A stretch of DNA of 64,000 nucleotides from assembly GCA_961205875.1 (NCBI GenBank), contig OY540810.1, positions 12,524,001 to 12,588,000 of the forward strand, given 5' to 3'. The position numbers were made by a program, and so were the translations under genes. This stretch comes from Sialis fuliginosa. Taxonomy: Eukaryota; Arthropoda; Insecta; Megaloptera; Sialidae. The notes under the pieces were generated by a model, which was given only the letters and a program-made list of their open reading frames with translations, did not search any database and was not told the DNA's origin. Shown piece by piece: positions 7,395-63,621 of the stretch; within the stretch, counting starts at the first letter, position 1, and every line of letters starts with the position of its first letter.

Positions 7395-7697
7395 TGCAAA
7401 TAACATGCTAATGATTACAAAATGATAAGTACCAATACACAAAAGTTATAAAATAAAGAATCGTAAAATTGTAAACAATGTAAAGCAGATGCTATGATAA
7501 TATAATAATTAATTTAAATGTAACACCCATAACAATCGGTTATCAAATTAAGCTATTTTAGAGTTAAGTGTCTATATATTATGATTCAGTAATGGCAGTA
7601 TGTAATCAAATATCTAAAAATAATTCTAATTTAGTACATTTAATTAAACAAGTGTTCAACACCGGGGTATTGTCCAAGACTGGTACCAGTACCAAAT
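7395..7697 (+). repeat. Partial GGTACTGGCACC-type MITE
   Basis: The right half of the family runs from 'tgctaatgattac' through 'gtaaagcagatgct' to 'ccaagactggtaccagtacc'. The left half is missing. Confidence 0.7.
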
Positions 7698-10166: not shown

Positions 10167-10520
10167 ATACTAATATTATAAATGCAAAAGTGTAACTGTC
10201 TATCTGTCTAACTATATGTTACCTTTTCACGCGGTTAAATGCTGAACCGATCTTGATGAAATTTCGCAGGGAGATAGCTTACATCCACTTTATATCACAA
10301 AAATTGTATCTAGAAAAATGTATTAGATAAAAAAATGGAAGTGTGACTTTTGTACGCGCGACTCGTTTTATTGACTAATATAAAATCATAACATGAAATA
10401 TGAATTACTTAATCTTCTTCTTCATGAGTGACAGCTCCTACCTAACATAAATTCTACGTAAACCATAAACTTCTTACTATATAAATGACGCGAACGAAGT
10501 CGCGGGTGTCAGCTATATTT
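10167..10520 (+). mobile_element. SINE/Helitron-like short element
   Basis: It starts 'catactaatattataaatgc', contains 'gctgaaccgatcttgatgaa' and ends 'gcgaacgaagtcgcgggtg'+'tcagct'. It is inserted in the GGTACTGGCACC-type repeat: the flanks 'aaatgtactaaat' and 'tatttgattactgcg' are continuous in other copies. It belongs with 3855-4030, 18340-18436 and 27230-27525. Confidence 0.7.
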
Positions 10521-10641
10521 TTTTATATTTGATTACTGCGATTACTAAATCATAATATATATAGACAATTTACTGTAAAACAGCTTAATTTTATAACAAT
10601 CGGCCAATGGGTGTCAAAATGGTGGACATTTAAACTAATTA

Positions 10642-11794
10642 CACTACTTTACAAAAAAAAAATTGTGTTTACCCAAACATAAGTTTATACCGAATTCAAT
10701 TTCTGTCAACCTCTTATCACAAAATTATATGTAACATATTTTCATCACGTCAACTTTTTAAATATACCCACATAAAGTTTTGAAAGAATCTTATTCGTAG
10801 CGTCTAGTTTATCACTCGTTATTGTTGTATTTAGGTAATTGTTAAAGATTGAACGTGTTTTAAAAATGTCCTCAAGACAGTGTAAATTAAGTCCAAACAA
10901 CTTTTGCTATGTTTGTGGTAAAATTATTCTAACAAAGACGAAGAGATCAATTACAGAAGCAATAAAACGGGCATATTTCCAATACTTTCAAATTTTGATA
11001 ACAAATCTTGATAATAAATGGGTTCCTGGAGTAGTATGTGAAAATTGTAGAAGTATATTAACTAACTGGGCTGCAGTAAATAAAAAATACTTGCAATTTG
11101 GAGTAATTTGGAGTTTCAATGATGTAGAGAGAACCAACGCATCACGCTACGGACTGTTACTTGACAAAAATGGGTCTGCTTTTGAATATTTAAAAGCCGT
11201 CTAATCTCTCTGATGCTAAAATTAAAGAAGGAATATTTGTGGGTCTCCAAATAATAAAAATATTAAAGGATAACAATTTTGACCGTCACTTATCCAGTGT
11301 TAAAAAAGATGCTTGGTATTCTTTTAAAGCGGTAGTGGCAAATTTATTGGGCAACAACAAAACAGAATTATGAAAAAATTGTATCCAATTTATTGAATAA
11401 TTACCACAAAATAGGTGTCAACATGTCGTTAAAAATTCATTTTTTACACTTGAAAACCTAGGAACCGTAAGCGATGAACATGGTGAACGTTTTCATCAAG
11501 ATCTAAAGTCCTATGAAGAGAGGTACCAAGGTTTTTGGAATAAAAATATGTTAGTCGATTACTGCTAGAGTACCTTTAGAGAAACTGACACTAATCAATA
11601 TAAAAGAAAAAGTAATTTGTGCCACTTTTGATTGTCTTAAGATTTAAATAGGTATGTAAAAAATGTGAAATATAATTATTATAAAATTTAAAAAACTTGA
11701 CGTCCCATTTTTTTCCACTTCAACATTCAAGGGTGACTTACTCTACCGATTCTCATTGGTTTCATCCATGAGAAAAAAACGTTGTAAAGTAGTG
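10642..11794 (+). mobile_element. TIR DNA transposon (CMC/Chapaev-like), internally deleted
   Basis: Perfect 13-bp inverted ends CACTACTTTACAA (10642-10654) and TTGTAAAGTAGTG (11782-11794) are flanked by TTA on both sides (10639-10641, 11795-11797). It interrupts the repeat family of 21222-21762, whose uninterrupted copies read 'aattattagt' at this point, so the 3-bp duplication is verified. CAC...GTG termini with a 3-bp duplication fit the CMC group (CACTA/Mirage/Chapaev); the assignment is inference. It carries a decayed cysteine-rich gene at 10866-11631. 1153 bp, much shorter than an intact element would be. Confidence 0.82.
10866..11631 (+). pseudogene. Decayed transposon protein gene (CYVCGK family)
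   Basis: The N-terminal part (10866 to about 11110) reads MSSRQCKLSPNNFCYVCGK..., with CxxC (CYVC) and a second CxxC (CENC) that look like a zinc-binding module. From about 11150 the similarity jumps to the C-terminal part of the same family: DAKIKEGIFVG, a WxSFKAVVxNLLGN block, MSLKIHFLH, then DEHGERFHQD and YEERYQG. About 250 codons of the middle are missing. A stop at 11202-11204 and at least two later frameshifts and stops separate the rest. I recall this as a 500-600 aa protein family, multi-copy in arthropods and fish and mostly annotated 'uncharacterized'; here it is carried by a TIR transposon. Non-functional. Confidence 0.8.
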
Positions 11795-12022
11795 TTATTA
11801 GTGTAATATATTTATTAATTAATATATTAACATATATTAACATAGCATCTGCTTTACATTGTTTACAATTTTACGATTCTTTATTTTATAATTTTTGGTA
11901 ATTAATTTGATTTAATAAAGAGGTACTTGTTTTATTAGTAACATGAGTTTATGAGAATTACAAAGAAGAAGCCCATCATTCCCAAAAACAATATACCTTG
12001 CTCTTAAAGCGGTGTCAGTACC

Positions 12023-19460: not shown

Positions 19461-19915
19461 AGGTACTGGCACCAGTCTTTGTCGATACCCCAGTGTTGGA
19501 CACTCGTTTAAATATACTAATATTTGTTGATATTTAATTACTGCCTTTACTAAATCATAATCTATAGACACTTAACTATTAAATGGTGGACATTTAAAAG
19601 TAATTTATTAATTAATTATATTATCATAGCATCTGCTTTACATTGTTTCAAATTTTACGATTCTTTATTTTATAACTTTTGTGTCGTAGTACTTATCATT
19701 TTGTAATCATTAGTAAGTGTCCATCACTGGGTGTCCATTACTGGTTTTACTTACTGGAGAAATAAAAATAAAAGGCCATAATTTAAAAAACAAACTATAT
19801 TTGCGTAATTAAATTGATTTAATTATTTCATAAAGAAGTACTTGTTTTATTAGTAACATTAGTTCATTAAAATCATAAAAAAGAAGCCCATCAATCTAAA
19901 AAAACAGTATATTAT
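19461..19915 (-). repeat. GGTACTGGCACC-type MITE, reverse orientation
   Basis: Begins 'aaggtactggcaccagtc' and carries the 'gtggacattt', 'catctgctttacattg' and 'aatcataaaaaagaagccca' blocks. Its far end is lost. Confidence 0.7.
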
Positions 19916-21221: not shown

Positions 21222-21762
21222 GGTTGTGGTAAGGTACTGTTACTTTAAGAGCAAAGTATACTGTTTTTTGGGATTGATGGGCTGCTTTTTGCAATTCTCA
21301 TTAACTCATGTTAGGTACTAATAAAACAAGTACCTCTTTATTAAATCAATTTAATTACCAAAGTTCGAAAATATAGTTTTTTTTATTATAGCCTTTTGTT
21401 TTGTTTATGTTTTTTCTCCAGTAATGGACACGCTAATGATTACAAAATGATAAGTACAAACTCACAAAAGTGATACTAAAATAAATAATCGTAAAATTTG
21501 AAACAAAGTAAAGCAGATGCTGTGATAATAATATAATAATTAATAAATAGATCATACTAATAATTAGTTTAAATGTCCACCAGTTTGACACTCATTGACC
21601 GATTGTTATCAAATTAAGCTGTTTTAGAGTTGAGTGTCTGTAAATTATGATTCAGTAGTGGCAGTAATTAAATATCAACAAATATTTGTAATTTAGTACA
21701 TTTAATTAAACAAGTTTCCAACACTGGGGTGTATTGTCCAAGACTAGTACCAGTACCTTACC
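21222..21762 (+). mobile_element. Reference full-length copy of the GGTACTGGCACC-type MITE
   Basis: About 540 bp bounded by 'taaggtactg' and 'cagtacctta'. Comparing copies gives an inverted end of about 23 bp, TAAGGTACTGGCACCAGTC followed by TTGG. Internal landmarks: 'ctttaagagc', 'aatcgtaaaatt', 'gtaaagcagatgct', 'aaatgtccacca', 'aacactgggg'. No coding potential. Other copies: 7395-7697, 10095-12022, 19461-19915, 25988-26392, 30985-31715 (interrupted), 34360-34708, 44563-45031. Confidence 0.75.
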
Positions 21763-22600: not shown

Positions 22601-22819
22601 ACCATAGACATAGAGCATGGACTCGAAAATAGAGTCGTGTCAAAATAAATAGATATAAATAGGTTTGGGATATACTTGTCTTTTTTAAACAGGATTGTCT
22701 ATTTCATTCTTATTAGAAAAAGATATATAATATCCCAAACGCCACCACATCTGTCTCACTGTTTTGGAGAAATGTCACATTTAATACAGAATGCGCAGTC
22801 CATGCTCTATGTCTATGGT
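22601..22819. mobile_element. 219-bp TIR element
   Basis: Starts ACCATAGACATAGAGCATGG + ACT and ends with the exact inverse (22797-22819), a 23-bp perfect inverted end. A second nested inverted pair, 'gtttgggatat' / 'atatcccaaac', lies inside. No target duplication was clear by eye. Just upstream, 22465-22520 is a solitary arm of the long-hairpin repeat. Confidence 0.75.
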
Positions 22820-33720: not shown

Positions 33721-36149
33721 GTTTAAAATCAAGAAAATTAAATTTGAACATCCCTTATTATTTAATATGGGACTGCCACTGTATATCAGCACCCCTATAT
33801 ACGCCAAAGACAATGTGTATCTCATATTTAAATTTCAACGTGCCCATCTTTGTTAGTCTTGTATGTTTTAATGCAATTTATCAATTTATGGTATTTTTAA
33901 TTTATTCAAGTTTCGAGTTATGATTAGGGTAGTGTTGGATTAAAATATACATAAAAAAATAAGAGAGATATGGTTTTTTTATTATTTGAATTTATATGTT
34001 TTGTGTTTGATTAGTATGAATGCAAATGATTTATTTTATTTATTAATTTTCTTAACTCGTGATTACAGTTTTAACTTCAAAAAAAAGGATGTTCTCAAGT
34101 CAATCAAATATATTGCTTCCTCGCAATATCGAAGATACGAGAAGCTTTGTTTTCGTTTTAAAATGAGACAAAAAAATTGTTCTCAGATTTCAAAATTTTA
34201 AATTGATCTTTCCGTTTCAGGTCAAGACAAACACTTTTCTTTTCGAATCTGTCTGTCTGTGTGTCTGTAGAGTGATTATTTGTCACATGCATAACTCATG
34301 AACCACTGAACCGATATTAATGAAACTTGGTAGAATGGTTGGGTCTAAAATTTTTTCAATCAATTTAATAAATTAAATAAATCAATTTATTTTAATTATA
34401 GCCTTTTATTTTATTTATCTTTTTTCTCCAGTAATGGGCACTTAGTGATGGAGACTTGCTAAAGATTACAAAATGATAAATACTACGACACAAAAGTTAT
34501 AAAAGAAAGAATCGTAAAATTGTAAACAATGTAAAGCAGATGCTATGATAATACATATAATAGCTAATAAATATATTACACTAATAATTAGTTTAAATGT
34601 CCACCATTTCGACAGATTATGATTCAGTAATTGCAATAATCAAATATTTCTAATTTAGTACATATAATTAAACAAGTGTCCAACACTGGGGTATTGTCAA
34701 AGTACCTTATTTGTTAAATACATTAATCGATTAAATATATAATTTCTTAATCAATAGATTGAATCGAATATCCCCAGGTCAAATGCATATTCATTAGAAC
34801 TAGAAAAATAAATAAGGTAGGTATGTAAAAAACACCATGTGTTTTAGTGAATAAATTTAAAACATCTGTAAAAAATGTGCATGTTTTGCCCATAATAAAA
34901 TAATTAACATAGTCTACCCCAAAAACTGCACCAGACAATTTAAACTAGTTATTTAAATGAATCCGGAAAAAGACGTTCACAGTTAACTTTTTACCAACTG
35001 TTGTAAAATTTTATGGGGGGGTTTGGTGATTACCTTAGGAAAAAATGTATAGTTTATGGTTTTTTTTAAAATATTTTCTCCTGACAGTGCCGTTTTTAGA
35101 CTGGGCTAACAACATCAGAGAATATTTGATCTAATCTGAGAATATTTTACTTCCTCGCCAAATCCGAAGGAAGAGCGAAGCTATGTGATCATTTTTGAAT
35201 GCAAAAAACCATTTGTTCTGATTTCAAAATTTCTACTTAATCATTTTTCTGTTCTCTGAATCCTTGTCACTTGTATAATTCATGAACTATTAAACCGATA
35301 TTAATGAAACTTGCTTGGTTAGTTGGGTCTGACAAGTAGATAGTCCCATATAAAAATCATCAAAATCGTGTGTATGGGGGAGGGGTGACATTCTAAAATA
35401 GTTATTTTTTCAAGATATCTGAAGAATGACATTACGTGGAAATTTTATAGAATCTTTTTTGTAGAGCATTTTTAATTTTTTTATAAAATAGAGCACTACA
35501 ACTTTCGTAGTAAAATTTTCCCTTTTGCGTTCTAAAATTTAAAAATCTTCAGTTTTTTTTTCAAAGTGAAAAAAAAATACGAAATAATAATCAGGCACGT
35601 ATTAAGTTAATATTTTTTTTTAATTTGAATGGTTTAGCATTAGATTAAGACTATGGATACATAACAACCAATGTTAGTCCGTATATGAAACTGTTGTCAA
35701 AATTATACGGCGGCCATCTTTACTGAAATGTCACTTTTGTCATTTCCATGCATATATTATCCCAGAGGCGTCAGTTGAAAATTTATAAAATGCAAATATG
35801 CTTTAAATTACAATTGAATTTGGTATGTATGAGAGATGATAGTTCCAAATAGACGTTCCTCTTAAATAATTATCACTGAAATACTATTAAAGACAATATA
35901 GAACATTTATTATTAATTAATTCTATAGTTCAAAACAATTGATATTTTTTTTTTAATCATACGCCAATGACTTATGGAGCGATTTTTCGTGGAGTGATAT
36001 GGTAACAACGCTAGATAATGTGTTATTCGCCCTTTATCTTTCCTTGTCTAATGGTTAAACAATGACAGTTCACTTGTATACTTTATCGGTGTTTATTAAA
36101 ATTGTTCAATACTTAACTACCTTTTGTGAATTTAGCACCTGGCATTCAT
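33721..36149. other. Intergenic, repeat fragments
   Basis: 34110-34340 and 35145-35310 carry the 'gccaaatccgaag' / 'catgaaccactgaaccgata' repeat. 35440-35580 matches 50520-50615. 34360-34708 is a MITE listed separately. No gene. Confidence 0.5.
34360..34708 (+). repeat. GGTACTGGCACC-type MITE, partial
   Basis: 'aattatagccttttatttt', 'gtaaagcagatgctatgata' and 'caacactggggtattgtc' followed by 'agtacctta'. The left end is truncated. Confidence 0.65.
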
Positions 36150-40024: not shown

Positions 40025-40812
40025 CGGGACTTTCTTATACGTAATACTGACAGTGAACAGCGCAAGTGATTCTTATTTTATTTTGAGGGGGCATTAATTA
40101 TAGATAATAAAATTCTCTGCAACATGTATCAAATTAATTTTTTAATTACTAAACCAGAAACGGATCAATTTTTGAATTTTCGTTGCAAATTGTCGAGTAT
40201 TTTATTATCTATAATTTATGTATAATTTATTTTTTTCCATCATTTATTATATAGCCAGAAAGAATGTCTTTACATAATTAATTATAATCACCCACACTGT
40301 TCACTCTCAGTATTACGTATAAGAAAGTCCCATGGTACCTATGGCATATACGCACACTGTTCAAACTCTGTAATACGTATAAGAAAGTCACTCATGGCAG
40401 ATATTTCTTCTCTCTTATGAACCATTTAAAATGTAATTTTTTTCAAAAATTTGTTTTTACGAAAAAATGAATAGAACATAAATTATAGATAAAAATATTA
40501 CCTTCAATTTTTAACTTGACCATATTTATTCAAAAATCGACCACAGCAAACGTCCTTATCCGATTGAAAGATCGTTTTCAAAAATATGAGGTTTTCTTCC
40601 CAGACAAAAATTAATTTTAAATATAAAATTTCACCCTTCTACGATTTGTCGACAGATCGACACACAGATATCATGGCGAAAATAATGGATTAAGGGAAGG
40701 TCAAAATGGATAATTCCATCAAAATCCGGATTTCGAAAAAAATCGGCTTTACTATATACCTATATGTATATTTTTTTTCATATATACATTGGTATAAGAA
40801 AGTAAAAAAAAA
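40025..40812. mobile_element. TIR element with ACTTTCTTATAC ends, copy A
   Basis: Left 'gggactttcttatacgtaat' and right 'gtataagaaagt' (about 40792-40803). Inside, two further 'acgtataagaaagt' ends at about 40315 and 40375 and the 'tttcacccttctacgatttg' block. Homologous throughout to 45567-46340. No coding frame. Confidence 0.65.
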
Positions 40813-43065
40813 TATAATTATTTGTATACCAATATATTTTTAACTTAAAAAAATATTTGAAACGGTACTGTTTATAACATTTTTTATACGCAATTTGCTG
40901 TGGAACGTATGTACCGCGTAAAAAGAGACCCTGCTGTATATTATAATTTTAATATTTGACTATTTTCAATCCATATTAACGGACTTTTCGTTTATCTTAT
41001 GAAGATCTCGAATATAATCATATTATTATTATTAAGAAATGTGCATCTATAATAAACGTTAAATTATAAAAAAAGTCTCTTTCATACGTATGTTACATAC
41101 GTTTATACTTTTTCAACAGAAATCATTTTCAGTCGATTAAATGTTCAACTGCCACTGAGAAAAAAGTTGTGACATATCTGTCAAACTTCAAACGGTCATT
41201 TTTTTCACTGAAATCTATGAAATATTGTATAAATATCTTTACAAATCTTGTTTAAAAGGGCGTTATGAGTTTCAAGTGGCTTTTTTCTGTGCAGTAACGT
41301 ATTTCACCACAAAATTAAAATACTCGCGCTATTTGGTTTCCGCCTTTTTCTGTAATTTTGCATACGGACTTAGGGTGGGGTGAATTATCACAAAGGTTTC
41401 CTGGTTTTACACGATTCTCAAGTCGATATTTAAATCAATTGTTAAACATTGTGATTGACATTTTGACACCTAGTTGACTGTATAAATTGTTATACTGACT
41501 TCATTATTTCTTAAGACGTGAATAGTTTGTGTTAGTATTAGATTTTTTTATTATTAAGTCAGTTATTGAGTTGGGCGTTGACATATTTTTTCTAGAAAAA
41601 CGTTATTTTCAAATCAATGTATTTTATTCAAATCAGCGGAACGTTTTTGCCCATGGAGGGGGAGAGGGGGGGGGGGGGGTAATTTTTATCAATAGAAAGT
41701 AACTTGATAACATACATATTGTTTTGTATTTTTAACCGACTTTGAAAAAGGATAAGGCTTTCAATTTGACAATATATATTTTTTATGTATGTTGAAATGT
41801 GAAGGCTTTCAAATTTGAATTATTAATATTTTTTGTAAAGAATTAAAATTACACTAGTAATTTTTTTTTAAACAAACAATAATTTCTCATTTTGAGCTGC
41901 ATAAAACTCAATTTATACTGGAGTTATATTAGCGAAATGTTTTGTAAGTACCTTATTGAAAAAACGATCATTTTTACGTTTTTTTGTGTATGTTTTTTTT
42001 TTTATTAAATATCTGCAATTCTATTAACCGGATTGCAAAAATAAAAAATGCATTTTTCTTCGTTATGAATTTCCCTATATAAAACTAAATATTTAAAAAT
42101 CACAATAATTGTATTACATAACCTAAAAACCCATTAGTATTTTTTTACAACGACCAATAATATAGTAAATCGATTTTAATAAAATTTTGGGAAAATATAT
42201 TTTTTATGATTGTAAATATGTAAGTGTGAGAAGTTCCAAATCAAAACGGCTAAAAAACAAATTTAAAAATAAAAATTGACTCGCTGATATCTTGTGGGCA
42301 ACAAATAGTAGAGGGATATTCTTTTTTTGTAGATTTTTTATGTACTTACTGTGCGGTGTCAAGGTAATTCTATAAATGTTTTAAAAATCTAATTTTTTGG
42401 GTTTTTGTTTTTGAAAAATTTTCTCCGTGTTGAATCAAAATAAGTTTAACTCAAAACTTTTTTAAATCTGGTTTCATAAAAAAATACCTTCCTTGTTCGG
42501 GGGCCCCCATTGCCCGGAGGGTCGGGGCACTACCCCAGCTGCCTCGGTGGTAGTTACGGCCCTGCTTAATATTAGTTAGTTGATCACGTTTGTATGTATT
42601 GTAGACTCGAGACTAAATAAGTTTTATGATATTATGCAATAATGTATGTTTTTTCTCCGACTACATACCTTCATTGTTACATAAAACATAACCTTCATGC
42701 AACAAAGGTACACTTAACACGGAGTTCATAACAAAGATTGGGCATTAAACACTGTTTATGGTCAACATAAAGTAGAAATACTTTTTATATGGTTGCAGTT
42801 TTACTGTAAAAGCGTTTGGCTGATGGTAAACCACTATTTTACGGCCTTTCTCTCGCAGAATAATAATTTTCTTTTTAGCAAATATAAAGTTATGTGGATA
42901 AAATATTATACTTGCTTTATTTACAGTGTAATTATTTATATATTATTATGAGTATGTATATAAAAGTTTTTTATTTGAAATATACACCGTTGTAGATTTT
43001 AATGAAAGATTTTTTTATTAAAATATTTTATATTCTTTAATAAATATTTGAAATGCTCTTTAAAT
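40813..43065. other. Intergenic, no gene seen
   Basis: 41740-41870 is the 'aaccgactttgaaaaagg' repeat. 14-G run at 41666-41679. A GC-rich patch 42500-42565 ('ggggcccccattgcccgg') looks like an element end. Otherwise AT-rich and non-coding. Confidence 0.5.
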
Positions 43066-43070
43066 TCCAC

Positions 43071-43137
43071 TCTAGAACTATGAAGCTCCTGATGAGGACT
43101 TCTTGTGAAGTCGAAACACGTGTCGAGTGACTCTAGA
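43071..43137 (+). ncRNA. Hammerhead-ribozyme-like motif (type I layout)
   Basis: CTGATGA at 43089-43095, a stem II hairpin (ACTTC-TTGT-GAAGT, 43098-43111 region), GAAA at 43113-43116, then a very short stem III (ACAC/GTGT) and the cleavage-site TC ending at 43124. Stem I is GCTC (43085-43088) with GAGT (43125-43128), an internal loop, and an outer CTAGA/TCTAG pairing. One extra G after CTGATGAG would bulge in stem II, so activity is uncertain. Such short-stem-III hammerheads are known from Penelope-like elements and retrozymes. Confidence 0.5.
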
Positions 43138-43215
43138 AGGAGGAAGGCATGTAGGACATAACCCCCCCCCCCTCTAAACCTCTAAAATTAAATCAAATTA
43201 TATAGAACATTTTTT

Positions 43216-43862
43216 TGACATGAATAACGCCTAGAGTTTCAGGCCAGATACTGGGTGGGCATTTCGGAAATTTGATGTAACGCACAGAGATCATTTTTGT
43301 GCGCTAGTGTACATTTAAAATCAGTATATCTCAACACTCGGAGCAGCTACCATGCGGGTTTTGGTCTCAAATTATAGATCTCGATTATATCTACGAGAGA
43401 CAAGTAAAAATCAAAACATTTAACCAGTTTTAATGAGTGATAAATTTAATATTATACAAAAACAATAACAAAAAATTAAATCTTGTGTCCACAAAGTTTT
43501 TTAAATTGAATAAAAAAAATTTAAAGTTTTCGTATTTCCACGATTGCACTTGTAAATATTAATTAAATAAATTGAAAAAAATAACAGGATATTAGAATAT
43601 ATTCTCTACGACCTAACGGGTTTTAATTTTCTGATTAAAGTTTTTTTAAATTCAATAAAAAAATAAAAAGTAAATTTCGTATTTCCACAGTTCTGCTTCT
43701 AAATATTAATTAATTGTTTTTATATCCGTACAAATCATAAGAAATAAAATATAAATAATTAATATTATACAATACTAGTCTGGGTTTTATTTAACCCCGC
43801 CGCTACGTATTCACGTCAATCCCACGACTGTGCATCCCGACACAGTCACACCCATTTTTTTA
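43216..43862 (+). repeat. Longest copy of the 'ctgggtgggcatttc...cgacacagtcacac' repeat
   Basis: Homologous to 60646-61048 and 16940-17370, same order of blocks. It contains an internal duplication ('aattaaagttttcgtatttccac' and 'aagtaaatttcgtatttccac' near 43520 and 43665). Non-coding. Confidence 0.65.
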
Positions 43863-44562
43863 TCACTTCCCAGACCACGCCCCACCAAATTGTAAATCTA
43901 AATTCGCGCCAACCCCCCACCCCCCTTATTTCCGAAGAAAAAAAATTACTAAAATAACTATATAGAAATTGCAACTGGGCCCTGCATTTATATCTTATTC
44001 AAGTGAACATAATATGACTTGATGAGATATACATACATATGTATAAAAAATATATTTTTACGAAACTTGCAATCCTATACGATATTTTTTTTAAACCAAA
44101 CAAACTATAAATTAAATTAAATAAATATCAATGGCATCTAAAATTACAACAAGTAACATCTAGACTATTGAATTTTTAAAACCAGTAATCAAATAGCAGT
44201 ATAATAGATTCCTTAATATTGAATTAAATTAGGGGAGAGAGTCTACAACATATTCTAGAATAGAATAATAGAAAACTGTCACTATGATGTCATAGTTAGT
44301 TAACAACTTAAAAAGCATTTAATTTTTATATTTTTTTCCAGCATAGCTGCTGTCATATCATGAATAATGTGTTAATTATTAATTTCAGGAAATTGTAAGA
44401 TCAGATGTCGATTTGTTATTTGTTAAATAAAAATGATACCTATGTTTGATTTTTGATACACATATCGCGTAACTTATCGGTGAGAAATAAAATACTTCTA
44501 ACTGATTTTCACACTGCATTGTTAATTTTTTTATTATTTTATCACAACCTAAGATAAATTAC
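43863..44562. other. Intergenic, no gene seen
   Basis: C-rich start (43890-43930) then AT-rich. No repeat or gene recognised. Confidence 0.5.
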
Positions 44563-45031
44563 TGGCATCAGTCTTGGCCGCTTTAAGAGCAATGGGCTTC
44601 TTTTTGTAATTATCATGAACTCATGTTACTAATAGAACAAGTACTTCTTTATTAAATAAATTTAATTACCAGAGTGTGCAAATACAGTATATTTTTTCTC
44701 CAGAAATGGGTACTCAGTGATAGACACTTGCTAATGATTATTCACTACGACACAAAAGTTATAAAATAAAAAATCGTAAAATTTTAAACAATGTAAAGCA
44801 GATACTATGATAATATAAAAATTAATAAATAGATTACACTAATAATTAATTTAAAGGTCCACCATTTTGACACCCATTAACCGATTGTCATCGAATTAAG
44901 CTGTTTTAGAGTTCAGTGTCTATAGATTATGATTCAGTAATGGCAGTACCTAATCAAATTTCAACAAATATTTTTAATTTAGTACATTTATTTAAACAAA
45001 TGTCCAAGACTAGTGCCAGTACCTTATTTAA
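44563..45031 (+). repeat. GGTACTGGCACC-type MITE, near full length
   Basis: From 'ttactggcatcagtcttgg' + 'ccgctttaagagc' to 'ccaagactagtgccagtacc'. A 61-codon open frame inside it (from 44916) is chance. Confidence 0.7.
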
Positions 45032-45394
45032 CCGTTTTCTTGTATTATCATCAAAGAAATCTAGAAAAATATCATTGGGGATATATTATATACATATATA
45101 ACTATTTAATTCTTATTTTGGGAATAACCATCAACTGAAAGATTTGAGATAATTTAAAAAAAAACTAGTTACTTATATTTATTCAAGCAAAAATAGTACG
45201 TTACATTTAAATGCGATTTGGTAATTTGAATAGTTCTATTCAAATTAGGAAAAGATCATAATCTTTGCGGTCACAAAGAAATCGTTGATCTACCCATATT
45301 TAATTCAATATCATTCAATTATATAAAAACCAAATGTCCGGCTGTTAGAGCCCCAACTATTTAAATCTGATCTTGTTAATTTATTGCTACTTTA

Positions 45395-45525
45395 ACTAAC
45401 TGTCCACGGTGCTCTGGAAGCTAACTTAAATTAAAAAAATTATTACCTCTGAACTGTTTGTACAGTTCAATTCTTTAGTAGTTAAGGACATTTTAAGACC
45501 ACAAAGAAAAAAATCACCTCCGCGC
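45395..45525. repeat. Inverted-pair repeat, left member
   Basis: 'cacggtgctctggaagc', 'ttacctctga', 'tgtacagttcaattctttag' and 'ttaagaccacaaagaaaaaa' are the inverse of 47690-47815. Confidence 0.6.
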
Positions 45526-45566
45526 TTTTTTAATAATTCATAAAACAAAATATCTGCCTTGGGAAC

Positions 45567-46340
45567 CACGGGACTTTCTTATACGTAATCCTAACAATGA
45601 ATAGTATACGTGATTCTTATTTTATTAAAACATTTCTGACAAACTAACAAGAAAGAATAAAATGAATAATATAGGTAATATTATTCTCTCCATTATATAA
45701 CAACTGGTTATTTTTTAACGTAATAACTGAAGACGGATGTTTACTCTTGTAAATTTTTGAATTTTCGAATTATTTTTGAAATAAGAAAAAAATGTTTTAA
45801 ATAAAAAATGTCGAGTATGTTATTATCTATAATTTATTCACTATACATTTTTTCCAACATTTATGATTTAGCCAGAAAGAATTTTTTTATGTAATTATTT
45901 AGACTCACCTACACTGTTCACTCTCAGTATTACGTATAAGAAAGTCCCATGGTACCTATGGCAAACACACACACTGTTGAATCTCTGTAATACGTATAAG
46001 AAAGTTCCATGACACTCATGGCAGATATTTCTCCTCTGTTATGAACCATTTGAATTTTAATAAAAAAATGTTTTTTCAAAAATTCGTTTTTACGAAAAAC
46101 GTTTTCTTCCCAGACAAAAATTAATCTTAAATATAAAATTTCACCCTTCTACGATTTGTCGTATTTGAATTACAGCGCTTACAGACAGACAGACACACAG
46201 ACATCATGGTGAATTCAGGGAAGATCAAAATAGATAATTCCATCAAAATTCGGAGTTCGAAAAAAATCGGCTTCAGTATACTTACTTATACTATAACATA
46301 TATGTATATTTCATATACATTGTATAAGAAAGTAAAAAAT
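45567..46340. mobile_element. TIR element with ACTTTCTTATAC ends, copy B
   Basis: Same ends and internal order as 40025-40812, including the internal 'acgtataagaaagtcccatg' and 'acgtataagaaagttccatg' ends at about 45932 and 45990. 13-bp-scale differences and small gaps separate the copies. Confidence 0.65.
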
Positions 46341-46419: not shown

Positions 46420-46921
46420 CAAAATAATAAAAAAATATTGGGATTGGAACTTAAGACCCTTACTTTACAAAATCTGGTATAATTTTTTGTTAATTTTTAA
46501 ATATCAACCAAACAGTACTTTATATCGAAAAATCATAAGAGATACAATAATTTGGTTTTATTGAGCGGATTCGAAAACATATTTGATATTATCGATCCGG
46601 TAGTTAGTACCCGAGATATGAATTATTTTCAATTTTATAATAATGCCTTTTAGTTTTTTTGTGGACTCTCTGGCCTTTCAAGTTTCCTTCCGATTTTTTT
46701 GAAACTTGGTAAAAAAAATCGATCTTGTAAATACCTCAGTTAAATTCATTAGTTAGCGGAATTTCTTCATGACTTTAAAATTTTTATATTTCTTGCAATT
46801 TTTCGATATAAAATACCATTTGGTTGATATTTTAAAATTTACAAAAAATTATAGAAGATCTTATAAACAATGGGTCCTGAGTTCGAATTCCGATATTTTT
46901 TTATTTATTATGTAGAGCCCG
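46420..46921. mobile_element. Foldback element with about 115-bp inverted arms
   Basis: Left arm 46420-46533 and right arm 46803-46921 are imperfect inverses ('aaaaaaatattggg', 'gacccttactttac', 'atatcaaccaaa', 'tatatcgaaaaatc' and counterparts). The loop is about 270 bp. The right arm has 'gagttcgaattcc', which mimics a tRNA B-box, but no tRNA fold surrounds it. Confidence 0.7.
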
Positions 46922-53100: not shown

Positions 53101-54892
53101 CAAATTTTGATTCACTATATCAAGTTTTCTTTGTAATTTTATAGAGAATAGAAAAATATCCTATAGTTATATCGAATTTCACGATAGAGTTGGAAATAAA
53201 GTGCAAAACGCAAATTGTTAAAATTGCGACAAAATTTATATAAGACAGACTAGATTCGATTTAAGAGGAGAGATCTATTTAGGCAGCCAAAAATAAAATT
53301 TTTTGTGTTGAAACTATTAATTCTACATAATTAAAATTTTACATACATATTTATCATATCTTTTAATTTTCTAAAACAAATTTTTATTTTTTACTATTTG
53401 TTAAAGAAAAAGTAGTTTTTTTTTTTAATAAATTTCAGTAAACTTTAGGTTTACATTGAAGGTATAATTATGATATGTTATCTATAAATATACCAAACTA
53501 CCAAATGATTGATCAAAAAAGATAAACCCCTCCCACAATCCTTAAAAATTTCATTTTTTTTTTCGCAACAGACAACATTACAATTTCCAACTTACCTCAC
53601 TCTGAGCAATTTCATTATCATGATGCGGGAACTTAAGATCCACGCCTCCCGTATGGATATCCAACGTCGGCCCGCATATAGCCGAAGCCATTGCCGAGCA
53701 CTCTATATGCCATCCAGGCCTTCCTAAACCCCACGGAGAATCCCATGCAGGTTCCCCATCCTTACTGCGTTTCCACAACGCAAAATCTGTCGACGCTCTT
53801 TTTTCATTCGCTTGATCTGCGGAACTCAATTCCCCTTCACCTTCCTGTAGACTAGACATATCCCCGTACGCTTCTGGTACAAGTTTCGCGTAATGGTGAA
53901 GCTCCATTTTATCAAACGCAGCTACATCAAAGTACACAGAGCCGTTCGCTACGTACGCAAATCCATTCTTGATGATTTGTTCAATGTAAGCGATGATTTC
54001 AGGGATGTATTCGCTGACTCTAGTTAAAACGCTTGGACGTAGAACATTTAAAGAATCCATATCTTTATGGAATTCTTGTTCCCAATATCTCGGTACAGCA
54101 GTGAAGACTGCGTTATCTTTAACGGAAGATCCTAGTTTTTTATCGAGCCAATCAGATAGAATATCTCTTGCTTCGGAAACTAAATTTGATTGCGCTTTTG
54201 ATACTTTATCACTATCGCCACTTTTCACAGCCGTTTGGAGTTCTTCAATTACAATCGTCAATCTATAACGAATAGTCAATTATAAATTTAAAGGAAATCA
54301 TTTGTAAATTTACGTTCCCGTACCGTTCTAACATTTTTTCCATCATGGTTTTTTTATCTGGATCTGTAGTCGATTTAGCTTTTATAGAAAAATCAGTCAT
54401 TGCCTAAAATATATTTTAAAAAAGTTTAAAAAAGACAGATAAATTATTATTACTTTTTTTTTTACATCTTGGGCGTCTTTCAAAATTTGTTCAAGTTGTA
54501 ATGTTTTCGATGTATACTCGTTAAATAAATACTGTTGCCTTGCTCTTTTAATTATTTTATCATCCACATCTGTAATATTCATTACATACATTATATCGTA
54601 CCCAAAATAATCTGATAAAATTCGTCTTAAAATATCAAATGAAATATATGATCTAAAAAAAATTTTTTTAAATAAGTAGAAACGATTTAAAAATAATTAA
54701 TGAATTCGATTACCTAGCGTGGCCCATATGTGATGCGTCGTAAACAGTTGGACCGCAACTATACCATAAAACTCTGTTTCCATCGTGAGGAATGAATTGT
54801 TCTTTTTGTCTTGTTAGACTGTTGAATAATTTCAAAGCGGGACCTTTTTTGGGAGTCGGCACACTCCAAGGTGGTTGGAAACGTTTCGACAT
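50103..54892 (-). CDS. CARS1: Cysteinyl-tRNA synthetase, cytoplasmic (9 coding exons, complete)
   Basis: It joins cysteine to tRNA(Cys) using ATP in the cytoplasm. Coding exons in transcript order: 54892-54714, 54652-54466, 54403-54324, 54262-53596, 53028-52795, 52732-52588, 51607-51405, 51345-51183, 50440-50103. All junctions are GT/AG and phases match, giving 2196 nt or 731 aa; human CARS1 is about 748 aa. Seen in the protein: class I signature HMGH at residues 55-58 after the CGPTVYDAS stretch (C46), a zinc-site region with [10 protein letters not shown] (C337) and HHDNE (362-366), and KMSKS at 395-399. A lysine/glutamate-rich helical segment lies in the last exon, followed by the eukaryotic tail IPPSEMF...KYSQFD...GLPTHD. 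The start at 54892 matches the usual animal N-terminus. Two introns hold repeats (50441-51182, 51608-52587). The gene looks intact and is divergent from PDCD11. Confidence 0.96.
50623..51013. mobile_element. Element with AGGGTTCTG...ACGGAACCCT ends in CARS1 intron 8
   Basis: 391 bp inside intron 50441-51182. Its inverted ends and internal blocks match 62611-63075 in the neighbouring gene. The flank 50520-50615 ('cttttttgtagagcatt...cgtaaaatattccctt') matches a different repeat at 35455-35525, so two repeats sit side by side in this intron. Confidence 0.65.
52328..52622. repeat. Local tandem duplication that includes the 3' end of CARS1 exon 6
   Basis: Unit at 52328-52440 and unit at 52454-52622 share 'agttaaagtatatttgagg', 'ctttgcaacaatg' and then 'cataaagcagc(g/a)tgaa(t/c)atttt'. 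The second unit contains the true end of CARS1 exon 6 and its donor. The first keeps the exon-like stretch (52407-52439, same frame, encoding K-Q-N-I-H-A-A-L) but lacks the donor and about 45 bp between. It lies in the intron and should be spliced out. Confidence 0.7.
53029..53595 (-). other. CARS1 intron 4, no recognised element
   Basis: 567 nt between exons 4 and 5, AT-rich with homopolymer T runs. I see no repeat shared with the rest of the window and no coding content. Confidence 0.6.
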
Positions 54893-55350: not shown

Positions 55351-58300
55351 ATGGGTGTAGAAAAAGAAACATATTTTCCTCGTGGAGGAGCAAAACCTTC
55401 ATTTAATAAAGGAAGTAAAGTATCTTATAAAACTGTACGTATTTTTATATCTATTTACCTAACACAATATATTATAACATGTTAAACATAATTTTAGCTG
55501 TACGGAACAACCAAATTCAAGCGTCGTGTTCAAAAGAAGCCTAAGATATCGAAGTATGATAAAAAAAATAAAATATTTCCTAAGCCAAGTAAACCGAAAA
55601 CCGATACCAATGCTTCCAAAGACTTAACGACAGCTTCAGCGGAACGTTTATGTTATAAGGTAATTAGCTAATATTTAGCAAACGTGTTATTACTATTGAT
55701 ATATTTATAATTATCTTTTATTTTTAAAGAATATTCAAGAAGGGATGGTTGTTTTGGGAGCAATCCGTGAAGTTCAACAAATGCATTTGAGTATTTCATT
55801 ACCCGGTAGAATATCAGGTCAAATACCCATTACCCACATATCAACTCCATATAGACAGATGTTAAAAACACTTCTCGAAACTAACGAACATCCTAGTGTA
55901 AGTATTCTTTTATAACGGAACCTTTGCAAATTTAATAAACAAACTATTTTTTAATCAGGGTTATAAATCGTTAAAAGAAATGTTCGAATCCGGTCAATAC
56001 GTCATATGTAATGTCGTTCAAGTTGGACATGCGGCGGACGCTGATTTACATGAAGTCAAGTTATCATTAAACCCAGAAAGTATACAATCAGATAAGAAAC
56101 ATAACATGTTGACTAAAGGTACGTTCCTCGTGGCGGCAGTTTCAGCAATTGAAGATCACGGTTATGTTATGGACGTTGGAGTTAAGAACTGTCGAGCATT
56201 TTTACCGAAAAGTAATGTCGACGTGGATTACGGATTTTTAGGTTAGTTTTCTGCTCATTATCTGTATAATTGTTATTAAATATTATTAATGTTTAGGTGT
56301 TGGACAAATATTGTGGTGTTCAGTTAGTAAATCGGAAACAACTAGTATTGCATCTACGATAAAACTGACTACAATTAAAAAGCAAGTGTTTAATTTGTAC
56401 CCAACTGAAGAAGCTACTCTTAACGATCTAACGCCAGGATTAATGGTTGAATTTAAAATAAACAAGGTAAGATATTTATATTTCTATACAAATTTTACTT
56501 CCATGTTCTGGAAGAAATGGAAGTATTGTAATACCATTGAAAAATCGTGTCCAGCAGATTCTGATTGTACTACTTTTAAAACACATAAAGAAAAGTTTAT
56601 TTCCGCATGACGGCTGTGCATGTATTTGTGTTTTGGGGAAAATGTTTGTCTTAGTGAGACATATTGATTTTGGTGCTAATTGGATTAAGGATTTTGGAAA
56701 TATTAGAAATTTTGTACCTAGTATCATCTAAAAGTGAACGTTGCAAGTATTATCTCACTAATTTTGATAAGACTTGGTACATTTGTAGTTCAATCGAACC
56801 TAAGGCATATTTATTTTTATACATGCCTAACAGCTATTGAAGGGGTGAAAACCACCCTCAAAATTTTGATTTTAAATACTAATTAATACATCAACTAATT
56901 CAAAAGCAATTAAATTCAAATTGTCAGATTAGTTATTCTACAAATGTGTATTATATTATTGACATTAAGATATTAGAAAACTAATATTTATAATACAAAG
57001 ATGAGTTTTATTTCTGACAAATCCCATTTTTTTTTTCATATATTAAAAACTATTTTAAAAAATATTAAATATCATAGAAGTCATGTGTGGTTCTTCATAC
57101 TGTTAATTTATTAAATAATACTGTGATTTGTATTTACAGATACTTTCTGACGGATTGCAAGGAACGTTTTTAAATAATTATACTGGATATATCAACGTAT
57201 CACAATTTACAAAATCGTTTGCTATTCCATCATCGTTTGAAGTAGGTCAATCTATAAAAGCTCGTTTATTATATATAATGCCTACGATTAAATTATCGTA
57301 TTTTACATTGAAAAGCTTAGATGCGAAAGAGAAAATCTGTTTAAAAGAAGGTCATACTGCAAAAGCAATTGTACGTTAAAACTTCTGTTAAAATTTAGAA
57401 TTGCTATAATTAAATAAAACCTTCTTTTTTTTTAGATAACTTCGCACGCTGGAAAAGGGTTTTATATAAAAATAAGTAAAACAGAAAAAGGGTATGTTTC
57501 GTATCAACGTTTACGATTAAAACAAGATTCGACGGATAGTAACAAAATCAAATCGAAATACACTATCGGTTCTATACATCAGTGCAGAGTCCTCGGTTAC
57601 GATTACATGGAACAAATATATATCTGTACGTTCGAAAAGGATTTAATCACAGATAAATATTTTACTGTAGATAAATTGGAATTGGGACAACTCGTTACCG
57701 TTACTGTAGACAAAATTAAAGACAACGGTTTGATGGTTTCCTTTGGAAGAATAAAAGGATTTATTCCAAAGCTTCATGTATCAGATATACCGTTAATTAA
57801 CATCACAAATGCAATAATACAGAAGTTTTCGGTTGGACAACAATATAATGCAAGGTTAGGTTATAATCATATAAATTATTAACTTTAATGGCTAATACGG
57901 AGAGTCTGGGGGTCCTCTGTCAGATTTGTGAAAAATCACGTATATAGTTATTCAGAATAGGGTTGACGCACATGCGTGACTAGATTAGGGTTACAAACTT
58001 TTATAAATCACGCATTTTATAAAACGACTGGCCACGTTTAGCTGTGGTATATTTAATTATTTAGTTTAAGTTAGAGTAGTCCAGATAGATTGGTTCGTTT
58101 TCAGGTAGGGTTAGGTTAGGTTTATGAATTTCTGTCTATGCACTAAATAATATATTAACATAGATACAGCATACTCTACTCTATTCTAACACATCAACAC
58201 GTGATTTTCAGAGTTTTTGACAGAGGACCCCAGACTCTCCGTATTTACCACTTTAATTTTTAATTGTTGTTTTAATTTCAGAGTATTAAACATAAATGCA

Positions 58301-61300: not shown

Positions 61301-63621
61301 AAGACAAAGAAATAAAAGTGACGATTGTTTTCATCGAAGATAATCTTATAATCGCAGTTCCGCAAAATAAAATGGAGAAATATTTTATTTATTTACCGAT
61401 GAAGAAACATTATAATGATTTTACACCTGATACAAAAAAATATAAAATCGGCGATGTAAAAATAGTTTCCGTTGTAAAGTAAGTTTAAAGTTACATAGAA
61501 ATGTCTTATTTTTTATTAATGAGTCTTGATTTTTTTTATAGAACCGTCAAGAATTACGTAATAGGTAAAATAAAAATAAAAAAATTAAATAAAAATGTAA
61601 AAATAATTGATACAGAGAACGTTAAAAGTAAAAACCATAAAAGAAAAATGTCTCAATCTGAAACAGATGAAACAGAATCAATTAAAAAAAAATTAAAGAC
61701 AGACGAACCAAAAGAAGAAGAAAAATCTAAAAAACAGAAAACAACTGACGGAATTGAAAAAAAAAGTAAAAAAATGAAATCTCTTGAAAAGAATGCAGCA
61801 GAAAAAAAAGAAAAGTTAAAGAAAAATGATGAAATTAATAAAACACCAGTTTTATCTGGTGCAGATAACTTTTGGGATTTAAAACCTGAAATGTTAGGAC
61901 TTTCAAAGATAGATGAAGACTCCGCCGATGAAGAAGACTCGGTAATTTAAAAAAAAAATTTACATATATATATATAAAGTCTCTCTGTAAGTCTGTCCGT
62001 TAGTGCGCTTATAACTCGAGAACCACTTAAATAGAAATAATTTGAACTAAATTATATACGGTAAAATATTATCAATAAAGCACGTCAGAGCGAGTAGCTG
62101 TAGTCCACGCGAGCGAAGCCGCCCGGACACAACTAATATTTATATATAATACAATACACTTTTTAATTTTAGAATAACCAAACCAACAGTAAGAAAAAGA
62201 AAACGACTGCAGCTGAACGAGTCGAACTAGCTCGTAAAGAAGAAGATCGTTTAAGAGAAATCGAAGACAGATTAGCCGATACGGCTACGATACCAACAAG
62301 CGCTGATGAGTTTGATAGATTGGTTCTTTCAAAACCAAACAGTTCATTCGTCTGGGTTAATTACATGGTGTATCACTTACAAGCTACAGAGATAGACAAA
62401 GCCCGTGCTGTTGCAAGAAAAGCATTAAGTACGATTTCGTTTAGAGAAGAACAAGAAAAATTAAACGTATGGGTTGCGTTGTTGAATCTTGAGAATAATT
62501 ACGGGACAAATGTAAGTATTTACTATCACACACACACCGCACACACCTTACATATCAAAGTCATTCGATGTTAACCGCACTCTTTAATAGGGTATTTGAA
62601 TCTGTTTTTAAGGTTCGGTAGAAAATTAGGAACCCTTATAGTTTCGCTCTATCCGTCTGTCTATATAAATTTTATACTGATTAAGATGAAATTTAATATA
62701 CGGAACCCAAAAACAGAAATAATAAGATTTTCGAAACAAAAATGTTTTTGGACCCCCTTTCCATAGACTGAAAAGTATATTAACAAAAATTCACTTAATC
62801 CATTAAGTAAAGTGTCTTTAGACAGGTCTCCTAAAATGCAACAAAAAATGTTATATGACCTTTTGATTTTAACCTTTTAGTCACGATATATTTGCTTTTT
62901 AATGTCATTATCAGCGTGTCTCTCCTCCCTCAAATTTCTAAACTATCAATTCAAAAAAACTGAATAAATTAAAAATGTAGCTTTTAATTAGCACTTTCAA
63001 TGAAAATTATAACGAACACTCAAAATTTTTTATAACTTTTTATAAATCGTAGTGAGAATGACTACGGAACCCTATCAATCATTTTATTTCCTAAATAATG
63101 CTAAAATGCTGAAAATAGTATTTTTAATTTTCAGGAATCATTTACATCCGTTCTAGAAGAAGCTGCTCAAATGAATGACGCACTTGCGATTAGAACTCGA
63201 GCCATGGGTATTTTAGCCGACAGTGGAAAACAATCCGAGCTACAAGAATTAATTAAAACTGTTTTACGAAAACACAAACATATGCCGGAAGCTTGGCTTC
63301 AAACTGGCGCGGCTTATTTCCGAGCTGGTATGGTTCAATCAGCTCGATCTGTCTTGCAGAGGGCTTTAACTAGTCTTGATAAGAGACATCGTAAGTTGAT
63401 TTTAAACTTTTAAACCCACATTGTAAATTTTATTGATAACTCGTAATTTTTCTAGATATTGATTTGATTGTTAAGTTTGCATTCCTTGAATCGAAGAATG
63501 GAGATTCGGAACGAGCTGAAGCATTATTTGAACAAATTCTTGCTTTGTATCCAAGGCGTATAGATATTTGGTCAGTTTATGTAGATTTGTTGATTGGAAC
63601 CGATAGAATTGACATCGCAAG
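55351..63621 (+). CDS. PDCD11: RRP5 / PDCD11 pre-rRNA processing factor (18 exons, 3' end outside window)
   Basis: A nucleolar scaffold of the 90S pre-ribosome, needed for 18S and 5.8S/25-28S rRNA maturation. Exons: 55351-55434, 55498-55659, 55730-55897, 55959-56241, 56297-56466, 57140-57370, 57436-57854, 58282-58534, 58792-59011, 59074-59303, 60131-60274, 60342-60546, 61097-61213, 61280-61478, 61542-61941, 62173-62511, 63135-63390, 63456-63621. Phases agree throughout (1348 codons plus 2 nt). The N-terminus has the FPRGG motif, then about eight S1-type OB folds (residues ~85-860). A Lys/Glu-rich, NLS-like linker (~965-1070) leads to an acidic FWDL region. C-terminal HAT/TPR repeats start near residue 1135 (DEFDRLVLS...[23 protein letters not shown]). 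A donor at 63622 shows that the final part, expected to be about 50-80 residues by homology, lies beyond the edge. I start at ATG 55351; an earlier in-frame ATG (55237) gives a non-conserved extension. Confidence 0.95.
56497..57100 (+). mobile_element. MITE-like element (ACTTCCATGTTCT family) in PDCD11 intron 5
   Basis: About 600 bp filling most of intron 56467-57139. It matches the repeat at 728-1480 along its length, including 'ttgattttggtgctaattgg', 'tattatctcactaattttg' and 'gaccaaggggtgaaaacc'-like blocks. The left end starts ACTTCCATGTTCT, and the right end carries the decayed inverse before a 'catgtgtggttcttcatac' tail. No coding capacity is seen. Probably a non-autonomous DNA transposon; the superfamily is unknown. 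Confidence 0.7.
57897..58242. mobile_element. Short TIR element in PDCD11 intron 7
   Basis: 346 bp bounded by long inverted ends of roughly 44 bp beginning ACGGAGAGTCTGGGG(G)TCC and running to 'aatcacgt' on each side. It sits inside intron 57855-58281. The interior contains two TTAGG units near 58107. No protein-coding content. The target duplication could not be settled by eye. Confidence 0.7.
58535..58791. repeat. PDCD11 intron 8 with two copies of an 'aggttaacctcaaattag' repeat
   Basis: Two direct copies of a 30-nt motif (near 58598-58627 and 58667-58689) lie in this 257-nt intron. They are the reverse complement of a block found at 52355-52400, 52485-52525 and 63757-63806, with the 'tttgaggttatgtttaact' core. 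It is a short dispersed repeat of unknown origin. Confidence 0.5.
59484..60070. mobile_element. hAT-type non-autonomous element in PDCD11 intron 10
   Basis: 587 bp with inverted ends CAGTGGCGCCGGAACCA (left) and the complement of CAGTGGCACTGGAACCA (right), 15 of 17 matching. It is flanked by ACCGTCTG / ACCATCTG, an 8-bp target duplication with one difference. CAGTG-type ends and 8-bp duplications are typical of hAT transposons. It has a poly-C run near each end (59514-59525, 60021-60033) and no transposase reading frame. It lies within intron 59304-60130. Confidence 0.8.
60646..61048 (+). repeat. Interspersed repeat in PDCD11 intron 12 (third copy of a family)
   Basis: It matches repeats at 43216-43860 and 16940-17370 over blocks such as 'gggtgggcatttc', 'gatctacgag', 'aaacatttaaccagtttt' and 'cgacacagtcaca'. 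Order and orientation are the same in all three. It occupies most of intron 60547-61096. No coding content was recognised; it is a non-autonomous element of unknown class. Confidence 0.7.
61960..62150. repeat. SINE/Helitron-like piece in PDCD11 intron 15
   Basis: It contains 'gtccgttagtgcgcttataactcgag' in parts and ends in 'cgcgagcgaagccgcccgg...aacta', a tail type shared with other short elements here (16233, 18980, 32470). It fills intron 61942-62172. Assigned by similarity to copies in this window. Confidence 0.55.
62611..63075. mobile_element. Element with AGGGTTC...ACGGAACCCT ends in PDCD11 intron 16
   Basis: 465 bp with imperfect inverted ends ('aggttcggtag' / 'ctacggaaccct'). It shares 'cctaaaatgcaacaaaaa', 'agcttttaattag' and 'tttcaatgaaaattataac' with the copy at 50623-51013 in a CARS1 intron. 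No open reading frame. Probably a non-autonomous DNA transposon. Confidence 0.65.

Follow-up and report, generated by a model that had tools for sequence, protein, structure and literature searches.

A 1153-bp inverted-repeat unit of Sialis fuliginosa, very probably a dead Chapaev3-group transposon copy

Chapaev transposons were reported in 2007, and the Chapaev3 group in 2008 (the latter in Repbase Reports). According to passages of PMC4079192, Chapaev transposons have invariable CAC/GTG termini and target-site duplications that are generally 3-4 bp long; all Chapaev3 elements examined there have TWA duplications between A and T, and empty sites confirm them. The same passages describe the silkworm element Garfield, 2,289 bp long, in whose 556-aa transposase the C(2)C, LH and H(4)H motifs are seen. 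Where Garfield and Merrow transposases are complete, their length is 554-562 aa; they are encoded by two exons, and in complete copies exon 1 contributes 77-78 aa. A single exon is described for most other Chapaev3 transposases, and tenrec Conan has 461 aa (passages of PMC4079192). Internal-deletion derivatives of Chapaev3 are known from silkworm and lizard (same passages). The Chapa domain, a zinc finger of complex type, is found in Chapaev3 transposons (a section of PMC4411706), and Chapaev, EnSpm, Mirage, Transib and RAG1 have been grouped by their C(2)C and H(3-4)H motifs (a section of PMC12730594). Chapaev3 elements are also listed for a blowfly, in a part of the paper that does not show their end sequences (PMC3630058).

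Here we describe a 1153-bp terminal inverted repeat unit (positions 10642-11794) in a 64-kb stretch of Sialis fuliginosa DNA, referred to below as the window. Very probably, it is a Chapaev3-group DNA transposon (CMC clade) that has lost part of its interior and is now dead and non-autonomous. A CMC-like reading had already been proposed in the first-pass annotation: its DNA transposon with CAC/GTG ends and a 3-bp duplication is supported, as a cut-and-paste element, and its notion of an unrecognised family is not supported. The element most likely belongs to a kind that is already known rather than to an unrecognised transposase family, because the ends of the unit and the TWA duplication with its A/T neighbours fit Chapaev/Chapaev3, as do the size of the protein and its zinc-finger-like N-terminus.

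The unit, its target site and its empty sites

The unit has perfect 13-bp CAC...GTG inverted ends, CACTACTTTACAA, and was inserted with duplication of a TTA (Table 1). The empty sites in uninterrupted copies of the host repeat are clear proof of the element's ends. When the two flanks of the unit are joined and searched against the window, the joined sequence matches through the site at 21477-21685, 34491-34614 and 44753-44971, all on the minus strand. The aligned empty site reads AATTATTAG, and the occupied site has one more TTA plus the unit. Two other copies of the host repeat are damaged here: near 19461 a deletion spans the site and no empty site is present, and the copy at 7440-7622 keeps TTATTA and has lost the sequence just beyond. 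The 1153-bp length, the perfect 13-bp ends and the TTA duplication of the first-pass annotation are all reproduced, with exact coordinates. Two of the three empty sites it named (19461, 21222 and 44563) are right as well, the copy at 19461 being deleted across the site, and the clean empty site at 34582-34596 had been overlooked. One base on each side can be assigned either way (TTA + CAC or T + ACAC), because an A adjoins CAC at both ends of the unit.

Table 1. Coordinates, strands and remarks for the features of the unit and its insertion site
Feature	Position	Strand	Remark
Left target-site duplication, TTA	10639..10641	.	One TTA fewer in uninterrupted host-repeat copies
Left terminal inverted repeat, CACTACTTTACAA	10642..10654	+	
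Presumed 5' non-coding part	10655..10865	+	Precedes ATG at 10866
N-terminal 80 residues, C-x2-C ... C-x2-C, zinc-finger-like, weakly ZAD-like	10866..11105	+	PF07776 zf-AD
10-bp tandem duplication, AATTTGGAGT twice	11095..11114	+	Where the family-like frame shifts
REPTHHATDCY stretch, changed frame	11107..11172	+	tblastn match, residues 78-101 of the composite protein
C-terminal block with SDAKIKEGIFVG	11200..11370	+	SDAKIKEGIFVG from 11209
C-terminal block NYEKIVSNLL...KIHF, other frame (frameshift)	11366..11443	+	
C-terminal block with ENLGTVSDEHGERFHQD, interrupted by one in-frame stop and closed by the presumed terminal stop	11443..11631	+	ENLGTVSDEHGERFHQD from about 11452
Presumed 3' non-coding part	11632..11781	+	Downstream of presumed stop
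Right terminal inverted repeat of CACTACTTTACAA	11782..11794	-	
Right target-site duplication, TTA	11795..11797	.	
Empty sites in host-repeat copies	34582..34596, 21558-21572, 44840-44854	-	Flank alignment

Inverted repeats arise frequently by chance in the window, owing to its low GC content (29.2%). Counting overlapping 13-mers singly, there are 411 perfect inverted 13-mer pairs whose starts lie 200-6000 bp apart. A 3-bp direct duplication flanks eight of the 411, and only one of those eight begins with CAC: the unit at 10642-11794. The insertion site reads A-TTA-...-TTA-T, that is, ATWAT, a motif that starts at a fraction 0.0102 (1.02%) of window positions; by chance, an A before and a T after accompany 12% of the TWA sites in the window. 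With the duplicated TTA at its centre, the target forms a palindrome of 11 bp, CTAATTATTAG (10635-10641 with 11795-11801; empty sites 21558 and 34582). The empty-site copy at 44840 deviates from this palindrome by one base, and perfect 4+4 complementarity around TWA is found at 1.3% of TWA sites in the window.

A single copy of the unit is seen, so the ends are without confirmation by a second copy. Additional matches to the unit ends in the window are near chance (six with two mismatches, 3.76 expected). Plant CACTA elements carry subterminal repeats; a test for such repeats in the unit gave six shared 8-mers, which is not significant against 500 shuffles (mean 3.78, maximum 14).

Several other features of the window were observed. 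The 332-bp unit at 46500-46831 has the look of a further small terminal inverted repeat element, its inverted ends AATATCAACCAAA being perfect over 13 bp and each flanked by TTA, and a 219-bp unit at 22601-22819, with 23-bp inverted ends ACCATAGACATAGAGCATGGACT and TTT on both sides, is hairpin-like. A 5.2-kb stretch at 40375-45586 is bounded by 15-bp inverted ends ACGTATAAGAAAGTC, each flanked by AAT, and is possibly a larger element of the terminal inverted repeat type; one empty-site copy lies inside it. The repeat at 10484-10512 is presumably one that also occurs in Lepidoptera. Host coding sequence is represented by a cysteinyl-tRNA synthetase exon on the minus strand at 53578-54279 (PF01406, E 3e-63). 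On the plus strand, a weak RRP5-type S1 domain (57436-57879; E 1.5e-4, below the cut-off) and a TPR-like repeat (63105-63410; E 2.7e-5) may come from one RRP5-like gene.

The broken gene and its presumed parent

The coding blocks of the unit are distributed over three reading frames. The N-terminal MSSRQC... stretch (from 10866) lies in the first frame, SDAKIKEGIFVG and ENLGTVSDEHGERFHQD lie in the second, and the stretch between those two lies in the third. From the ATG, 112 codons remain open (MSSRQCKLSPNNFCYVCGK...VVCENC...), and the corresponding ORF at 10839-11204 is one of three in the 64 kb that reach at least 120 aa with a usual start codon. The start codon is 224 bp, and the presumed stop 163 bp, inside the unit ends. 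A 10-bp tandem duplication, changes of frame and in-frame stops disrupt the gene, and the protein is not intact. The peptide blocks picked out earlier in the first-pass annotation are thus present in the unit and on the same strand, yet in different frames of a broken protein. The tandem duplication at 11095-11114 spans codons 77-83, near the position of the Garfield/Merrow intron; this may be a coincidence.

We take the protein of the unit to be a recurrent, multi-copy type of "uncharacterized protein" in animal gene sets. Two composite proteins that approximate this family were written out after the window had been read, which makes them a yardstick that provides a lead and no test. In a tblastn comparison with the 64-kb window, the 551-aa composite protein matches at both ends (2e-19 and 1.7e-35), through residues 1-80, 78-101 and 402-551; about 290-300 middle residues have no counterpart in the unit. 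By the same comparison, the last ~30 codons of the 112-codon stretch are out of the family frame. The N- and C-terminal blocks would then belong to opposite ends of a single protein that has lost its catalytic middle, with a putative internal-deletion junction near 11160. A single protein with a deleted middle, as the composite protein implies, is consistent with the way in which the blocks, which are seen directly, follow one another on the same strand.

The protein most likely represents the element's own gene. It would be the transposase rather than an accessory protein, because its start and stop lie near the ends of the unit, the missing part is intragenic, and the simplest parent has no room for a second gene; an accessory protein is less likely, as the deletion proposed here sits within one gene spanning the unit. 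We infer the transposase identity, the size of the parent and its catalytic motifs along the following lines. The parent element would have been ~2 kb long, with one gene encoding a transposase of ~550 aa. The N-terminal cysteine-rich zinc finger of this protein would bind DNA at the element ends, and its RNase H-like DDE core, carrying the C(2)C, LH and H(4)H motifs, would cleave at CAC/GTG; insertion would take place at A-TWA-T, where TWA is duplicated. Gap repair, or something comparable, would then have removed the middle of the gene (~290-300 codons). The shortened copy would have been mobile only with help in trans and would have decayed afterwards.

The core motifs C(2)C, LH and H(4)H are present in the composite sequences, and the core itself is missing from the unit. 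The 551-aa composite protein has CFLC, LH and HFLHSH in this order ahead of GERFHQD; the patterns themselves (C..C, LH and H....H) are loose and have further matches in it. Against the Pfam copy used, the 551-aa composite protein has no match at E up to 10, and neither composite matches a transposase profile; such proteins would therefore receive no name from routine annotation. Among the six rows of the family alignment, matches are confined to zf-AD and five unrelated Pfam families (best non-zf-AD E 0.037). A PDB search with the alignment profile gave nothing better than E 0.99 and no transposase or RAG1. An LC3 protein matched by the 290-aa part of the composite protein (PDB, E 0.025) was rejected as chance, with again no transposase or RAG1. 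These null results agree with a family that lacks a model, and they give no positive support for a transposase. In animal gene sets, proteins of this "uncharacterized" type would probably be better labelled as Chapaev3 transposase, and masked.

The N-terminal 80 residues weakly resemble the Pfam family zf-AD (PF07776, ZAD), with E 1.5e-4 and a score of 22.3 bits, below the curated Pfam cut-off of 28. None of nine cysteine-preserving shuffles matched zf-AD, and the best shuffle match to any family had E 0.0067. The 551-aa composite protein has no zf-AD match in Pfam at E up to 10. No ZAD structure was found in PDB for the N-terminus from the window, all 18 matches (E 1.5-1.8) being ribosomal protein S2, and the predicted structure of the 80 residues is not usable (mean pLDDT 53.4). 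Among the 10 listed of 15 literature matches, no paper contains both of the words Chapaev and ZAD. A parallel can be drawn with the link between Chapaev elements and RAG1 that has been attributed to the Chapa domain: the dimerisation domain found in a large family of insect regulators might have come from an animal transposon, or be shared with one. Such a history is unlikely; if the ZAD resemblance were real homology, the origin of a regulator domain that is expanded in insects would be opened to test.

Searches for relatives and rival identities

Searches with window peptides and degenerate DNA patterns found no real relatives in IMG/VR viral contigs, where a composite protein was also used, or in GTDB genome contigs, and tblastn found none in plasmids and phages. 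This is the expected outcome for an animal transposon, since the IMG/VR, GTDB, plasmid and phage sets hold few or no animal sequences. Five candidates were rejected: a viral contig (L001) with a chance 9-residue match, and four others (L002-L005) with one 8-residue word in common, for which tblastn reached E 0.95 at best and found nothing for L002. Literature searches for the peptide motifs of the unit and for uncharacterised CMC proteins returned no paper. Among the matches listed for the 13-bp end and its shorter forms, the full 13-mer occurs once in one paper and no title has a transposon topic. PTHR46114, which we take to be the family number, is absent from the papers among the matches listed.

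Assignment to a different CMC branch (EnSpm/CACTA), or to a CMC-like lineage not yet described, is quite unlikely in place of Chapaev3. EnSpm/CACTA elements are usually much larger, with several products. The Transposase_21 profile of EnSpm/CACTA has no match at E up to 10, in a scan whose window pieces are without the core and whose core was that of the composite proteins. That this composite core matches no Pfam transposase, and that Chapaev3 is set beside the unit by description only, leaves some weight with such a lineage, as do the CAC...GTG ends and 3-bp duplications that EnSpm shares with the unit (a section of PMC12730594). However, the A-TWA-T duplication, the ~550-aa protein and the N-terminal zinc finger are reported for Chapaev3, and the portions of the EnSpm/CACTA literature compared here do not state a TWA target rule.

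A Pack-type non-autonomous element, in which fragments of an unrelated multi-copy host gene were captured and moved by another transposase, is very unlikely. Capture of this sort is reported in plants (PMC8903248), and the unit is known from one broken copy, with no intact parent seen. Internal deletion of a transposon's own gene nevertheless leaves the pattern observed here, as in the Chapaev3 derivatives described in passages of PMC4079192. Both apparent ends of the protein, start and stop included, stand in order on the same strand and take up the greater part of the unit, which argues against captured fragments.

A PIF/Harbinger element is extremely improbable: TTA duplication is a Harbinger habit and the unit shares it, within an 11-bp palindromic target, but PIF/Harbinger elements are not known to have the CAC/GTG ends of the unit, and neither Harbinger transposase nor Myb/SANT has a Pfam match in the four coding pieces (which are without the core) or in the composite proteins. 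A TWA duplication is equally a feature of Chapaev3 (passages of PMC4079192).

Comparison with known systems

Among animal CMC elements, the CACTA family Spongebob is comparable to the unit and is also found in silkworm, but it differs in having CCC termini and a 2-bp duplication (a section of PMC4298943). Membership of the unit in Chapaev3 is well supported but unproven. Unlike the described Chapaev3 families, the unit is 1153 bp long and dead, and no intron is seen in it, in contrast to the two exons of Garfield and Merrow.

The fit to Chapaev3 is close in the ends and the target rule, both of which were tested: the unit has 5'-CAC...GTG-3' inverted termini and a 3-bp TWA duplication (TTA, with three empty sites), preceded by A and followed by T. 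The fit is also close, partly by way of the composite protein, in protein size, in the finger-like N-terminus and in the kind of derivative. Where Chapaev3 has the Chapa zinc finger, the unit has a cysteine-rich N-terminus with the weak zf-AD match. Like Chapaev3, which occurs in insects including Lepidoptera, the unit is found in an insect, and it combines CAC...GTG ends, an A-TWA-T target, a zinc-finger-like N-terminus and a protein of probably similar size in an internal-deletion derivative.
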